Origin: Streptomyces sp. NBC_01750
GTDB lineage: Bacteria; Actinomycetota; Actinomycetes; Streptomycetales; Streptomycetaceae
NCBI RefSeq assembly: GCF_035918095.1
Contig: NZ_CP109137.1
Span: forward strand, 310,001 to 374,000
Direction of reading: 5' to 3'
DNA length: 64,000 bases
The translations under genes and the position numbers were made by a program. The notes below the pieces were generated by a model. It was not told the DNA's origin. It did not search any database and saw nothing but the letters and a program-made list of their open reading frames with translations. This document shows, in pieces, positions 21,434-25,811 of the stretch (position 1 is its first letter; each line of letters opens with the position of its first letter).

Positions 21434-23698
21434 CTACGAACCGCCCGGGCTCCGTCGCCTTCTGATGCGCCGCCACATTCCGTGTCCCGCAGCACTACGC
21501 GCCAGGACGTCGGCGAGTTCTGTCAGCACCAGCGCTTCCTCGGCGTTCTCGCCCAGATGCGCAGCGACCGCAACAGCGTCCGCGTGGAGTTCGCACGCTT
21601 CCTCCCGTCGCCCCACCGCGGCGAGCGCGAGACCAAGCCTGCTCAGCGCGTCGCACAGCGCGTGCTCGTGCGCCCTGAGATCCTCTGCGGCCAGTTGCCT
21701 GAAGACGTCCACGCCCTCAGCGGCCCGCAGCACGGCGTCTTCCGGTCGGTCCGCCTCCAACAGCTTCGCACTGAGATGGATCAACAGGTCGGCGAAGTAC
21801 CTCTGGAAGGTCCCCGGGGCCGCCTGTGCCTGGCGTCTGCGGATCTCCACGGCTTCCTGCGCGGGGGCGACGGCCTCCGAGTGCCGGCCCAGGTCCGCGA
21901 GCGCAACGCTGAGGTTGTGCAGTGCTCCCGCGAGTTCCACATCGTGAAGTGCGGGCTCGTCCCCGCGTGCCCATCGGCGTCCGATGGTCACGGCCTCCTC
22001 GGCGGCCTCCCGGCGCCTTTCCGGATCGCGCTCCTGGATGGCGAGGTTCGCAAGGGAACGTCCCACCAGGGGTTCGATGTCAGGCTGGTCCCGGGCGAGT
22101 TCCCGGTAGATCCTGATGGACTCCTTTGTCGCGGCGACAGCCTCCGCCCGCCGCCCGGCCCCGAACAGCGCCATGCCGAGGATGGTGTGGAGCCCACCCG
22201 TGTCGCTCACCGTTCCGTGACCGTCGACCACTGCCAGCGCCGCCTCAGCCACAGCGGTTCCGTCGTCGAAATAGCGCCACTGGAAGAGGCGATACACGAG
22301 GTCGAAAGCGATGCGTACCACGACATCCGGATGGCTCCCGGAGAAGGTCTGGGCGGCAGCGGTGAGGTTCGCGCGCTCGTCCTTGAGCCAGCCGAGCGCT
22401 TCACTGCGGCTGCCGAACCGCTGACGGCTATGCTCCTCCGGCAGGTCCGCCAGGAGCGCGGTCGCGGCTTCGAACGTCGTGGAGTAGTGCTCCAGCAGCC
22501 GGTCCGCCGCCTCCGCCCGGGCACCCGCGTCGTCCCCTTCCGCCAGTTCCGCCGCGTACAGACGGATCAGGTCGTGCATCCGCCACCGCCCTTCGCCCAC
22601 CGGCTGCTCGCTCAGCAACGCCGTGCGGGCGAGGTCAGCCAGCAGGCCCCGGGCCGGGCGGCCGATCAGGGCTTCCGCCGCTTCCGTGGCCAGGTCCGGG
22701 CCGGGGTTGAGGGACAACAGGCGGAAGAGCAGGGCCTGTTCGGGGTCCAAGCGACGGTACGAGCCCTCGAACGCGGCCCGTACGGCGAGGGAGTGGCCGC
22801 CGTCGTCGTAGCGCAGGTGCTCCAGGCGGCCTCGGGTGTTCGCCAGTTCGGCGGCGAAAGCGGCGAGGGAAAGGCCCGGGTCGCCGGTGAGGCGGGCCGC
22901 GGCGATCTCCAGGGCGAGCGGGAGTCTGCCGCAGTGGCGCACGACCTCGTCCAGTGCCTCACGCTCGCGCGAAGGACGGATGTCGTCGGGACGCGCGCGG
23001 GTGAGGCTGTCGCTGATGAGTTCGCGGGCCGGGCCGGGCGCCAGTTCGTAGAGGCCGAGCTGGCGCGCGGGGAGGGCCGCGAGGATGTCCCGGGAGGTCA
23101 CCACCAACCGGTGTTCGCGACGCGCGGGGATCAGGGGGCTCACCTGCGCGGCCGTTGAGGCGTTGTCCGCCACGAGCAGCACGCGTCGGCCGTGGTCGGC
23201 CATGCGGGCCAGCTCGGAGCGGTAGACGGCCGCCTGTTCGTCGGTCGTGGACGGCAGGTCCTCGTCCCGCACGCCGAGTGCCCGCAGCAGCGCGGCAAGT
23301 GCCTGCCCGCCCGTGACCTGGCCCTCGGGGTCGTAACCGCGCAGATTCACGAACAGCACGCCGCCGGGGTACCAGTTGCGTACGACCGCCGCCTCGTGGG
23401 CGACATGCAGCGCCAGTGCGGTCTTGCCGATCCCCCCGAGTCCGGAGACGGCGGAGACCACGACGGCCGAGGGGCCCTGCCCTTCGGGATCGAGGAGTTC
23501 CAGCAGCTGTTCGGCCTCGGACGTGCGGCCGACGAGGTGGGCCGGTGGGGCCGGAAGCGCGGCCGTTGCCTGCGGTACGGGGCCGGTACCCGTGGCGATG
23601 ATGTTGTACTGGTCGCCGGCGAACTGCTCCACGCGTCCCGCTCCCTGGGCGCGCGCGTGCTGCTCTGCGCGGTGGTTACGCCGCTTCTCCCCCGCCAT
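21434..23698 (-). CDS. NB-ARC (NLR-like STAND) NTPase with TPR repeats
   Basis: A 754-residue NLR-type signalling NTPase. After a short N-terminus holding EQFAGDQYNI (residues 24-33), the NB-ARC domain has VGRTSEAEQL, Walker A GLGGIGKT at 86-93, RVLLVADNAS (Walker B), RLVVTSRD (sensor 1) and CGRLPLALEIAAARL (the GLPLA motif). A winged-helix region contains WRMHDLIRLYAAELA (MHD). From about residue 430 there are TPR-like helical repeats (GGLHTILGMALFGAGRRAEA, ALHNLSVALADLGRHSEAVA). ATG 23698 is four bases from the stop of the two-TM protein gene, indicating an operon. There is no DNA-binding or enzymatic N-terminal domain, so output probably passes through the N-terminal peptide to a partner protein. 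Confidence 0.88.
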   Translation of the reverse strand: MAGEKRRNHRAEQHARAQGAGRVEQFAGDQYNIIATGTGPVPQATAALPAPPAHLVGRTSEAEQLLELLDPEGQGPSAVVVSAVSGLGGIGKTALALHVAHEAAVVRNWYPGGVLFVNLRGYDPEGQVTGGQALAALLRALGVRDEDLPSTTDEQAAVYRSELARMADHGRRVLLVADNASTAAQVSPLIPARREHRLVVTSRDILAALPARQLGLYELAPGPARELISDSLTRARPDDIRPSREREALDEVVRHCGRLPLALEIAAARLTGDPGLSLAAFAAELANTRGRLEHLRYDDGGHSLAVRAAFEGSYRRLDPEQALLFRLLSLNPGPDLATEAAEALIGRPARGLLADLARTALLSEQPVGEGRWRMHDLIRLYAAELAEGDDAGARAEAADRLLEHYSTTFEAATALLADLPEEHSRQRFGSRSEALGWLKDERANLTAAAQTFSGSHPDVVVRIAFDLVYRLFQWRYFDDGTAVAEAALAVVDGHGTVSDTGGLHTILGMALFGAGRRAEAVAATKESIRIYRELARDQPDIEPLVGRSLANLAIQERDPERRREAAEEAVTIGRRWARGDEPALHDVELAGALHNLSVALADLGRHSEAVAPAQEAVEIRRRQAQAAPGTFQRYFADLLIHLSAKLLEADRPEDAVLRAAEGVDVFRQLAAEDLRAHEHALCDALSRLGLALAAVGRREEACELHADAVAVAAHLGENAEEALVLTELADVLARSAAGHGMWRRIRRRRSPGGS

Positions 23699-23702
23699 CC
23701 GG

Positions 23703-24086
23703 CTACCGCCCGCCGGTGTGCTGATCGCCGCCGATCTGCGTAATGCGCGCAGTGCCGGACGATTCGGCCTGCTGCTCCACATCAACAGAGGGCGCGGAGT
23801 CCGTACCACCTCGGCTGCCGCCGATCTGTGTGGTCCGTGAGGCCTCCGTCGCCGTCGCCCGCTGGACCACCCGGCCGCCGCCCCGCGTCTCGCGCCCGGC
23901 CCACCAGCCGAGCGGCGCGCCGGCCGCGCCTGCGGCGACCGTCGCGAACGCGGTGGCGACCGCCCAGCGTTCAGCCTCCCCACGCGGCAGCCAGCCGGAG
24001 AACACCGATCCGGCCAGCCACAGACCGACTCCGAAGGCCACGACCGATGCCATCACAGCCACTGCCCACCGACCCGTTCGCGCCAC
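23703..24086 (-). CDS. Two-TM protein with C-terminal TQIGG repeats, partner of the NB-ARC protein
   Basis: A 127-residue protein with two membrane helices (about 7-30 and 41-62) and a polar C-terminal tail. The tail carries two related segments about 30 residues apart: RTTQIGGSRGG (84-94) and RITQIGGDQHTGG (114-126). The x-Q-I-G core resembles RHIM-type amyloid motifs, and GGDQ echoes AGDQYN in the NB-ARC protein. GTG 24086 follows GAGGGGAG at seven bases; an upstream TTG at 24119 has no signal. Four bases separate it from the NB-ARC gene. The natural guess is a membrane effector triggered by the NB-ARC protein, but no such protein is characterised to my knowledge. Confidence 0.7.
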   Translation of the reverse strand: MARTGRWAVAVMASVVAFGVGLWLAGSVFSGWLPRGEAERWAVATAFATVAAGAAGAPLGWWAGRETRGGGRVVQRATATEASRTTQIGGSRGGTDSAPSVDVEQQAESSGTARITQIGGDQHTGGR

Positions 24087-24306: not shown

Positions 24307-25323
24307 TCAGCGTCCCTCCCGCCCGTCCGACTCGAACGCGCTCAGCAGCAGTTCCCGGTAGGAGAATTCGGTGACCTTCCGCCGTCTGCGTAGCAGGAAG
24401 GTCTTCTCCACTGTTGCCACGTAGCTGAAATGAGGGCGGACAGGTCCCTCGTCGGAGGGTTCGTAGGAGGGCTGCTCGTTCCTGAAAAAATGTACACCGA
24501 GCATCCTCGGAGGCAACTTTTCGTCGTAGAAGGCGACACGGTCCTCACTGATGTGTGGATCCGACCCGTCGGGAAGGCCAGCCAAGCACAGCGGGTCCTC
24601 CAGAACCGTCATGATCTTGCAGAGTTCCCGCCGCGCCTTCGGATAGCCGCCCCGTTTCTGGTCGTACGGCGGAATGACCACAGTGAGGCGTTCAAGCCGC
24701 TGCGTCTCCACGACCTTCCGGATCTCCCACCAGGAGGAAGCCCGGATCTCCTGGCGGGGCGGGATGATCAGGACGACGGAATGGGCCTGCTCGATAAGCT
24801 TCTCCACCGGCTGCATCCAATTGTCATTGGCCTTCATGTAGACGGGACCGCCGGGAGCCAGGAAGAGATGGGGGGCCACCACGGCGTACGTCTCGCAGGC
24901 CGACGTGTCGAACCAGGCACGGTTGACGATCTGTTCCATGGTCGACATGACCTTCATCCCGGCGAGCGACACGGACCGCCGCTTTCTGCTGCTCCGGACG
25001 AGGATGTACCCGTCGGAACCGAACGCGCGCAGAATGAGGCAGTACCTCACGCCCGACCGGACAAGTTCGTCGGTGGTCTCACCGAGGTCCTTGATCCTCA
25101 GCTTCGGTCGGTAGCGCCAGAGCCAGATCATTCTGGCTGCCCCTGCGACGAAGACAAGTAGGACGAAGAACTGCAGAGCGCCGGCCATGCCTTCGATGAA
25201 GAGGTCGACGCTGAAGGCCGCGCCGAGGGTGGTCAGCACGCCAAAGCAGCCGATACCGCGGGTGACCTGCTTGGCGACTACGCGGGCCCCGGTCTGCGGC
25301 ACCAGCTCTTTTCGGTCGGTCAT
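24307..25323 (-). CDS. Membrane-anchored TIR-like domain protein
   Basis: A 338-residue protein. Two hydrophobic helices lie at about 25-45 and 48-70, with the soluble part after them. That part has RYCLILRAFGSDGYI, then NDNWMQPVEKLIEQAHSVVL and SSWWEIRKVVETQRLERLTV. This order (LRxF.xDG, then W..V..L...A..VVL, then WE) is the layout of TIR-like domains in actinobacterial membrane proteins. A catalytic Glu cannot be assigned with certainty (the WWEI Glu is the candidate). ATG 25323 is chosen over a longer frame whose extra 45 residues are atypical. It lies 220 bases upstream of the NB-ARC operon in the same direction, so it may belong to the same signalling set. Confidence 0.6.
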   Translation of the reverse strand: MTDRKELVPQTGARVVAKQVTRGIGCFGVLTTLGAAFSVDLFIEGMAGALQFFVLLVFVAGAARMIWLWRYRPKLRIKDLGETTDELVRSGVRYCLILRAFGSDGYILVRSSRKRRSVSLAGMKVMSTMEQIVNRAWFDTSACETYAVVAPHLFLAPGGPVYMKANDNWMQPVEKLIEQAHSVVLIIPPRQEIRASSWWEIRKVVETQRLERLTVVIPPYDQKRGGYPKARRELCKIMTVLEDPLCLAGLPDGSDPHISEDRVAFYDEKLPPRMLGVHFFRNEQPSYEPSDEGPVRPHFSYVATVEKTFLLRRRRKVTEFSYRELLLSAFESDGREGR

Positions 25324-25811
25324 CGAACGTCGGCAGCCTTTCTTCCGGCGCGCGCGGTGATCCCCGCTCCCGTCCCCCGCCATACCCAGCGGACCGGTCG
25401 CGCTCCTACGGCCAGCTTGTCCGATGAAAAGGATGCCCATGGGGACAATGAAGGACATCGCATGGAAAGGGGGTCACCGCTGCTAATCTGCCGCGCATCA
25501 CGTGGACGACGGCCGTGACGTCGACCTCTATGAGGGCGACACGACCCCCGCGCCATCACCAACAACCCGGTGGCTCGTCCCCTGCCTTGTCAACCTGGTT
25601 GTGACCGCGCTTCCGTGATGACTACGGCCGGAGGACGACGCGGGCTTGAGTAAGGGAAATGAGATTCCCCCGTACTTCTGATGCTTGATCGTCTTGATCA
25701 CGGATGATCAGCTCCCGTCTTGGGCAACAGGGAGGTGCTCAATGGGCATCGCCACGGCGGAGGGGGCACCAATGGCGGAGGACGATGACCCGCCAGTTCA
25801 ACCGTCCGTCT
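25324..25811. other. No convincing gene
   Basis: Upstream region of the TIR-like gene. Short open frames exist (for example a plus frame from 25685) but have no good start or family. A comparatively AT-rich stretch at about 25650-25720 could hold promoters. Confidence 0.4.

Follow-up and report, generated by a model that had tools for sequence, protein, structure and literature searches.

A putative two-helix membrane protein and an adjacent NLR-type ATPase share a repeated amyloid-like motif in Streptomyces

INTRODUCTION

The bacterial amyloid signalosomes known as BASS/Bell-NLR systems (BASS, bacterial amyloid signaling sequence; NLR, NOD-like receptor) were reportedly described by Dyrka et al. 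in 2020 (J Mol Biol). Here, we examine a gene pair resembling these systems in a window of 64,000 nucleotides (nt) from Streptomyces sp. NBC_01750 (contig NZ_CP109137.1, positions 310,001 to 374,000), in which the gene of a small, predicted two-helix membrane protein, hereafter called the hairpin protein, directly precedes an NLR-type gene. The source genome measures 9.0 Mb, and about 0.33 Mb separate the pair from the main contig's end.

In BASS/Bell-NLR systems, which are known in Streptomyces, the NLR and its effector are encoded by adjacent genes and carry a short motif at the N terminus of the NLR and at the C terminus of the effector (PMC7889193, PMC8086366, PMC12261475, PMC9815663). Bacterial amyloid signaling has been described mainly for Bell effectors and less often for CHAT and TIR effectors, on which BASS motifs are also reported (PMC7889193). 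In the HET-S/NWD2 system of Podospora, the NLR carries one motif copy (R0) and the adjacent effector ends with two C-terminal pseudo-repeats of 21 residues (PMC7889193). Finally, SLATT proteins are predicted pore-forming effectors with two transmembrane (TM) helices that have been proposed for conflict systems (PMC7159879).

RESULTS

The gene pair and its shared motif

The hairpin gene and the NLR-type gene lie on the same strand, with the latter starting 4 nt downstream of the former (junction TAG-CCGG-ATG), as stated in the initial annotation. The features of the pair are as follows (positions in the window).

23703..24086, minus strand: hairpin (two-helix) membrane protein gene, presumed effector; 127 amino acids, GTG start
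24000..24068, minus strand: predicted TM helix 1, about residues 7-29 (hydropathy peak 2.07; AlphaFold2 helix)
23904..23966, minus strand: predicted second helix, about residues 41-61, Ala/Gly-rich, of marginal hydropathy (peak 1.42; AlphaFold2 helix)
23799..23870, minus strand: tail repeat R1 (VVQRATATEASRTTQIGGSRG plus 3 residues), from the ungapped repeat alignment
23709..23780, minus strand: tail repeat R2 (VEQQAESSGTARITQIGGDQH plus 3 residues), from the ungapped repeat alignment
23699..23702, minus strand: 4-nt gap CCGG between the stop codon TAG and the NLR start codon ATG
21434..23698, minus strand: NLR-type gene, 754 amino acids, with N-terminal motif, NB-ARC and TPR repeats (ATG at 23696-23698)
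23597..23668, minus strand: NLR N-terminal repeat R0 (AEQHARAQGAGRVEQFAGDQY plus 3 residues), 25.2 bits to the tail-only profile described below
22898..23512, minus strand: NB-ARC domain (Pfam PF00931, E 4.4e-7), converted from coordinates in an 849-residue open reading frame (ORF)
21833..22189, minus strand: TPR repeats, span of the best matches to Pfam TPR families (TPR_10, E 1.1e-11), converted likewise

Both segments to which the initial annotation had drawn attention are present, namely MAGEKRRNHRAEQHARAQGAGRVEQFAGDQYNI at the N terminus of the NLR and RTTQIGGSRGG, followed further on by RITQIGGDQHTGGR, in the tail of the hairpin protein. The Q-x-G motif considered common to the two proteins is longer than had been claimed, since it spans 21 residues in three pseudo-repeats that align without gaps, two clear ones in the C-terminal tail of the hairpin protein (R1 and R2) and one at the N terminus of the NLR (R0). 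Identities amount to 9/21 between R1 and R2, 7/21 between R1 and R0, and 9/21 between R2 and R0. The best local alignment between the tail and the NLR N terminus scored 52, a value reached in 6/10000 shuffles of the NLR N terminus. The Q-I-G-G string alone means little because the DNA pattern CARATHGGNGG is abundant genome-wide (83 + 96 matches, against 8 + 3 for a reversed control). When the window's own genome was searched with a motif profile, only the three copies of the pair were recovered, on which the profile had also been trained. A consensus, xxQxAxASGxARVxQVGGDQ, was derived from 39 copies including the three of the window; its two Q residues are invariant, partly by construction since the pattern used to choose the copies demands both.

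The Pfam scan of the NLR revealed no output domain in addition to NB-ARC and TPR. For the hairpin protein (P0001), none of Pfam, NCBIfam and PADLOC gave a match better than chance (best in Pfam, Thi4, E 0.13). The NCBIfam AfsR model matches residues 41-733 of the NLR (E 2.6e-73), as would be expected if the latter were an AfsR-like regulator and the pair acted in metabolism or development instead of defense or cell death. However, this match reaches 247.5 bits against a cutoff of 1430 and only starts at model position 284, and neither Pfam nor NCBIfam finds a DNA-binding domain in the NLR, so that we regard such a role as very improbable.

Related loci and conservation of the motif

A protein search with the hairpin protein returned 33 proteins at E <= 0.01, including that of the window, and all of the named organisms were Streptomyces. 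The tail repeats are kept down to approximately 40-50% identity among the 31 homologues aligned with P0001, a set that omits P0002, which is the protein of the window itself, and the weak P0034; two exceptions, P0022 and P0024, have different tails. With a broad profile, a match at E <= 1e-8 was obtained in 36/392 genomes of the genus, while 8/394 genomes of a class-wide sample matched at E <= 1e-5, all within the genus of the window. The profile search of genome contigs added Wenjunlia, Trebonia and one Streptosporangiaceae metagenome-assembled genome. Some of the weaker matches within the genus (E 1e-18 to 1e-8) were also read. From 43 distinct matches, 34 were kept, and the later addition of L142, L143 and L144 brought the set to 37 loci. 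The matches dropped were L076, L018 and L077 (without tail), L016 and L020 (long unrelated proteins), L071 (the same as L145 on re-reading, with an apparently frame-disrupted tail), and L019, L022 and L028 (other motif, handled separately below). L143 is included in the count of 37 and left out of the statistics based on 36.

The NLR/membrane-effector system proposed in the initial annotation holds insofar as the two genes form a recurrent system with a conserved motif: the neighbor of the hairpin gene encodes an NLR in 34/37 tailed loci, directly downstream in 33 and directly upstream in L108. By eye, a motif-like N terminus is present in 37/37 neighbors. In L110, the hairpin gene is followed, in place of an NLR gene, by that of a motif-bearing protein that has a single TM helix and a portion presumed to be extracytoplasmic. 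In L109 and L143, the neighbor is a divergently encoded helical protein whose N-terminal part is motif-like and in which no P-loop was found. The tailless small hairpin-like protein of L076, of weak similarity to the family, has the Cse1 gene of a type I-E CRISPR system as its neighbor (Pfam E 2.2e-98); L018 and L077 show the same arrangement by eye, again with weak family similarity.

The double motif, which had been thought unusual, is the rule in the hairpin family and has a precedent in HET-S: by profile, the 36 tails contain two repeats in 28 cases, three in 6, one in 1 and none in 1. The window's tail was scored among the six with three repeats; two are clear by eye.

To compare partners with other NLRs, a tail-only profile was built from 79 repeat segments (overlaps possible) of 33 hairpin tails, including that of the window, and its threshold was set at the 99th percentile of shuffles. 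The N termini of 34/36 partners scored above this threshold, compared to 2/26 NLR homologues without a hairpin gene; NLR homologues lacking the motif, which the initial annotation had named as evidence against its proposal, were seen only where the hairpin gene is missing (24/26 below threshold). The two controls above threshold are L101 and L104. L104 adjoins a motif-bearing Bell-like protein (see below), and no such neighbor was seen in L101. By eye, the remaining controls have other N-terminal motifs or none. The absence of a hairpin gene from the 26 control loci was checked by profile, and the only matches, both weak (16.0 and 15.1 bits), were in L104, where they fall on the ORFs read as the motif-bearing NLR and the Bell-like protein.

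Co-variation between partners

Co-variation in homologous loci, suggested as a check in the initial annotation, was also found. Tails resembled their own partners more than permuted ones, whatever the redundancy cut (n = 36, 24, 16 and 9; p 0.00005 to 0.00025), and the excess persisted without L045 and L047 (p 0.00005 to 0.00265, the latter at the strictest cut). Depending on the cut, the true partner held a median rank between 5.0 (of 36) and 2.0 (of 9), and own-pair similarity passed the 1% shuffle level in 31/36 loci. In L047, both partners have changed jointly (GGSAYVVQDGNQHI and GGAAYVVVHGDMHI). Apart from L072, the spacing between the two Q residues is also equal in both partners wherever it could be called, with a value of 10 in nine loci, 12 in 18 and 11 in L045; it could not be called in at least one partner of seven loci. 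The nine loci with a spacing of 10 amount to about one event because their NLRs fall in one weakly supported group of the NLR tree. On this tree, hairpin NLRs account for 4 label changes, of which starred branches force at least 3; the count of pairing events is uncertain because long branches meet.

Such co-variation and near-identity would be equally compatible with specific pairing by a non-amyloid device, with R0 and R1/R2 joined in a beta-sheet or beta-solenoid that is finite and of fixed stoichiometry, and no templated polymerization. Against this stand the Q-[VI]-G cores and the 21-residue pseudo-repeats, which resemble, and do no more than resemble, motifs with demonstrated amyloid behavior (PMC8086366, PMC7889193). 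We consider a purely non-amyloid pairing rather unlikely and templating of an amyloid fold by the motif reasonably probable.

L045 contains an exact direct repeat of 69 nt (69/69 nt; L045:6229-6389), with starts 92 nt apart and flanks matching at only 13/60 and 17/60 positions, that places the motif in frame both at the end of the hairpin gene and at the start of the next gene. These identical copies show that local duplication across the gene junction occurs, and the shared motif could in principle be its neutral by-product. This explanation is extremely improbable, however, as the motif keeps its frame at the matching ends of both genes even where loci have diverged strongly, is found in few NLR homologues whose locus has no hairpin gene, and reappears in Bell-like pairs.

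The motif on Bell-like proteins

When the motif alignment was run against 121 genomes of the genus, 51 had a match at E <= 0.05, and 29 motif loci drawn from the best matches (L147-L175) were read. Of these, 22/29 encode helical proteins of about 140 residues ending with ITQHATASGxARVYQAGRDQHI or similar, a group labeled Bell-like here from published descriptions of Bell effectors, and an NLR with a like motif was seen directly after it in 13/22. Because Bell-like proteins carry this sequence, the motif of the hairpin pairs apparently belongs to the same class as that of BASS/Bell systems. The two effector domains themselves have no detectable relation at the sequence level: hhalign gave 0.2% for the hairpin against 23 Bell-like domains, compared to 97.5% for two diverged hairpin subfamilies against each other. 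In L108, a Bell-like gene, an NLR gene and a hairpin gene stand in a row, with the motif on all three products.

Other motifs and direct fusions

Some hairpin proteins use a different motif. The tails of L019, L022, L028 and L179 carry a SGERSIAIGGDNxGxVSTGD-like motif twice, and in L019, L022 and L028 the N terminus of their own NLR bears it too (0-1/2000 shuffles). The tail of P0022, DHVDFSGGTFHAPVLGK, matches the N termini of six NLR homologues in other genomes (0/2000 shuffles each). N termini of this type occur in L081, L083, L085, L087, L088 and L090. Ahead of a similar NB-ARC-TPR core, the N termini of the NLR homologues of L083-L107 carry other motifs, of which at least two recur (HVDFxGGxFxGPV and NTISGGIFFHAVIQGRDI); that is, the N termini are modular. 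The HVDFxGGxFxGPV-type NLRs of L081, L085, L087, L088 and L090 are immediately preceded by a gene whose product has four or five predicted TM segments and is perhaps another membrane partner.

In L176, L177 and L178, a relative of the hairpin protein occupies the N terminus of a protein of about 1,320 residues, whose single open frame also encodes a P-loop NTPase and TPR repeats. Pfam detected TPRs in L176 and L177, and NB-ARC passed its cutoff in L177 (27.6 bits) and not in L176 (19.0 against 23.5). A protein search returned 16 hairpin fusions including the query, with TPR annotated in 16/16 and NB-ARC in 10/16. Several fusion relatives bear the public-record name FxSxx-COOH system TPR proteins. 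By hhalign, the hairpins of the fusions reached 97.5% against the main standalone subfamily, 97.4% against the whole set and 52.0% against the second subfamily, values to be read without a baseline of unrelated TM hairpins. As they are fused in one frame and no Q-motif was seen by eye ahead of the NTPase, the covalent link seems to replace the motif in these proteins. According to the classic fusion argument, direct fusions point to a partnership between hairpin and NLR, and we consider such a partnership, with the motif as its link, very likely.

The fusions, which place the hairpin at the N terminus of an NLR-type protein, would also suit a hairpin protein that serves as a membrane anchor or an input sensor docking the NLR by motif pairing, the output coming from the NLR or another protein. 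Its small size, the lack of a recognized enzymatic domain and the pairing with a motif-bearing TM protein in L110 are in line with such a role. On the other hand, the tail position and the number of repeats match effectors and not receptors in HET-S/NWD2 (PMC7889193), unrelated Bell-like proteins bear the same motif at their C terminus, and the NLR has no other output domain in Pfam. An anchor or sensor is thus unlikely, and we retain the effector role for the hairpin protein.

An ORF of 383 residues with hydrophobic segments (24307-25458, minus strand) lies about 220 nt upstream of the pair on the same strand. It has no family match above its cutoff, and nothing links it to the pair.

DISCUSSION

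The gene pair resembles BASS/Bell systems in that the NLR adjoins the gene of a putative effector (4-nt gap in the window; NLR neighbor in 34/37 loci) and in that a homologous motif is found at the NLR N terminus and the hairpin C terminus (6/10000 shuffles; 34/36 partners). It differs from them by its hairpin effector, which lacks a Bell domain as judged from the comparison with 23 Bell-like domains (0.2%) and not with a Bell profile, and by the two motif copies usually found in the tail. With HET-S/NWD2 it shares the two pseudo-repeats of about 21 residues (R1 and R2) facing a single NLR copy (R0). Unlike in HET-S, only a two-helix hairpin precedes the tail, with no HeLo domain found at the sequence level by Pfam; moreover, the hairpin is predicted to reside in the membrane from the start, and the NLR is of the NB-ARC-TPR instead of the NACHT-WD type. 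The Q-[VI]-G core recalls RHIM, PP and BASS3. The RHIM core reads (V/I)-Q-(V/I)-G; here, Q mostly follows T or N, and the flanks are not those of RHIM. The flanks of xxQxAxASGxARVxQVGGDQ are also unlike those of the published BASS3 peptide, on which a narrow DNA pattern was modeled that had 0 matches in 101 genomes of the genus Streptomyces. The motif could be BASS1, which is a guess based on a single position range given in PMC12261475. SLATT proteins are likewise proposed as two-helix membrane effectors, from which the hairpin protein differs by its coupling to an NLR through a shared motif; Pfam SLATT did not match it at E up to 1, no dedicated SLATT profile being compared.

The combination of an NLR, C- and N-terminal motifs and adjacent genes is already known, as are BASS motifs on CHAT and TIR effectors (PMC7889193), and the motif class is probably known as well. 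A hairpin effector with a repeated tail, its fusions to NLRs and the copying of the motif between partners are apparently new: none was found in open PubMed Central, covered as titles and abstract starts for a two-helix effector with NLR-matched repeats, and Dyrka et al. 2020, which lies outside this coverage, may already list them.

Taken together, we favor, as moderately probable, a two-component NLR operon in which the motif is templated from the NLR to a membrane-resident hairpin effector. The proposed mechanism follows HET-S/NWD2 and BASS/Bell signaling (PMC7889193, PMC8086366). The hairpin protein would sit in the cytoplasmic membrane and expose a soluble tail of two amyloid-like pseudo-repeats. 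Upon sensing a cue, the NB-ARC/TPR protein would oligomerize and thereby cluster its single N-terminal motif copies, and the R0 cluster could then template the effector tails into a cross-beta-like fold of the beta-arch type. The templated tails would gather the hairpins in the plane of the membrane, where they may cause leakage or disruption, leading to growth arrest or suicide, plausibly as an antiviral response. Membrane damage as the output is somewhat probable.

The gene pair, the likeness, conservation and co-variation of the motif, its occurrence on a non-homologous effector and the cis fusions were obtained directly from the computation; the direction of signaling, the amyloid state, the membrane output and the defense role are what we infer. 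Several results weigh against this interpretation. PADLOC gave no family below E 0.06 for either protein. The neighbor is not an NLR in 3/37 loci (a TM protein in L110 and a divergently transcribed helical protein in L109 and L143). The initial annotation had named as evidence against its proposal hairpin homologues that lack both an NLR partner and TQIGG conservation. These three loci are a weak form of this, their neighbors still being motif-like at the N terminus (by eye only in L143), and the other tails of P0022 and P0024 bear on the same point. Two partners scored below the profile threshold (L047, which is diverged, and L074, with 3.7 bits), and that of L143, scored apart, remained under 3 bits, its motif being visible only by eye. 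Tailless homologues were under-sampled because the search profiles contained the tail. The true partner was top-scoring in only 6/36 cases, the pairs of L042, L043, L044, L055 and L109 failed the 1% shuffle level, and L072 combines a tail of spacing 10 with an NLR motif of spacing 12. Hence, the pair-specific similarity is real at the sequence level and not absolute, and shared descent of the linked genes adds to the signal.

The structure of the hairpin protein also calls for caution. Of the two TM helices claimed initially, the first is clearly hydrophobic and the second marginal, so that the designation is a prediction. AlphaFold2 modeled two long helices with modest confidence (mean predicted local distance difference test score, 62.1) and left the low-confidence tail disordered. 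In the family, the N terminus is positive in 28/28 proteins, the loop is acidic in 22/28, and the charge after helix 2 is near neutral (mean -0.18; >=0 in 20/28). From these three features, both ends of the protein are probably, not certainly, cytoplasmic; the topology is weakly inferred because of the marginal hydrophobicity of helix 2 and the near-neutral charge that follows it.

More tentatively, and with some doubt, these proteins may represent a new class of executioner for amyloid signaling by NLRs of Streptomyces, in which a hairpin already in the membrane is clustered by its NLR-templated tail, as opposed to a soluble helix bundle that is sent to the membrane. Such hairpins would be wired to NLRs in several ways (by this motif, by at least one other tail motif and by fusion), with motif copying keeping the pairs private. 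If true, the motif would act as an exchangeable wire between sensors and executioners, here by way of a hairpin effector that is not homologous to the Bell-like proteins, and the cis fusions, the two-effector operon of L108 and the identical-copy locus L045 would offer direct handles on motif function and pair specificity.

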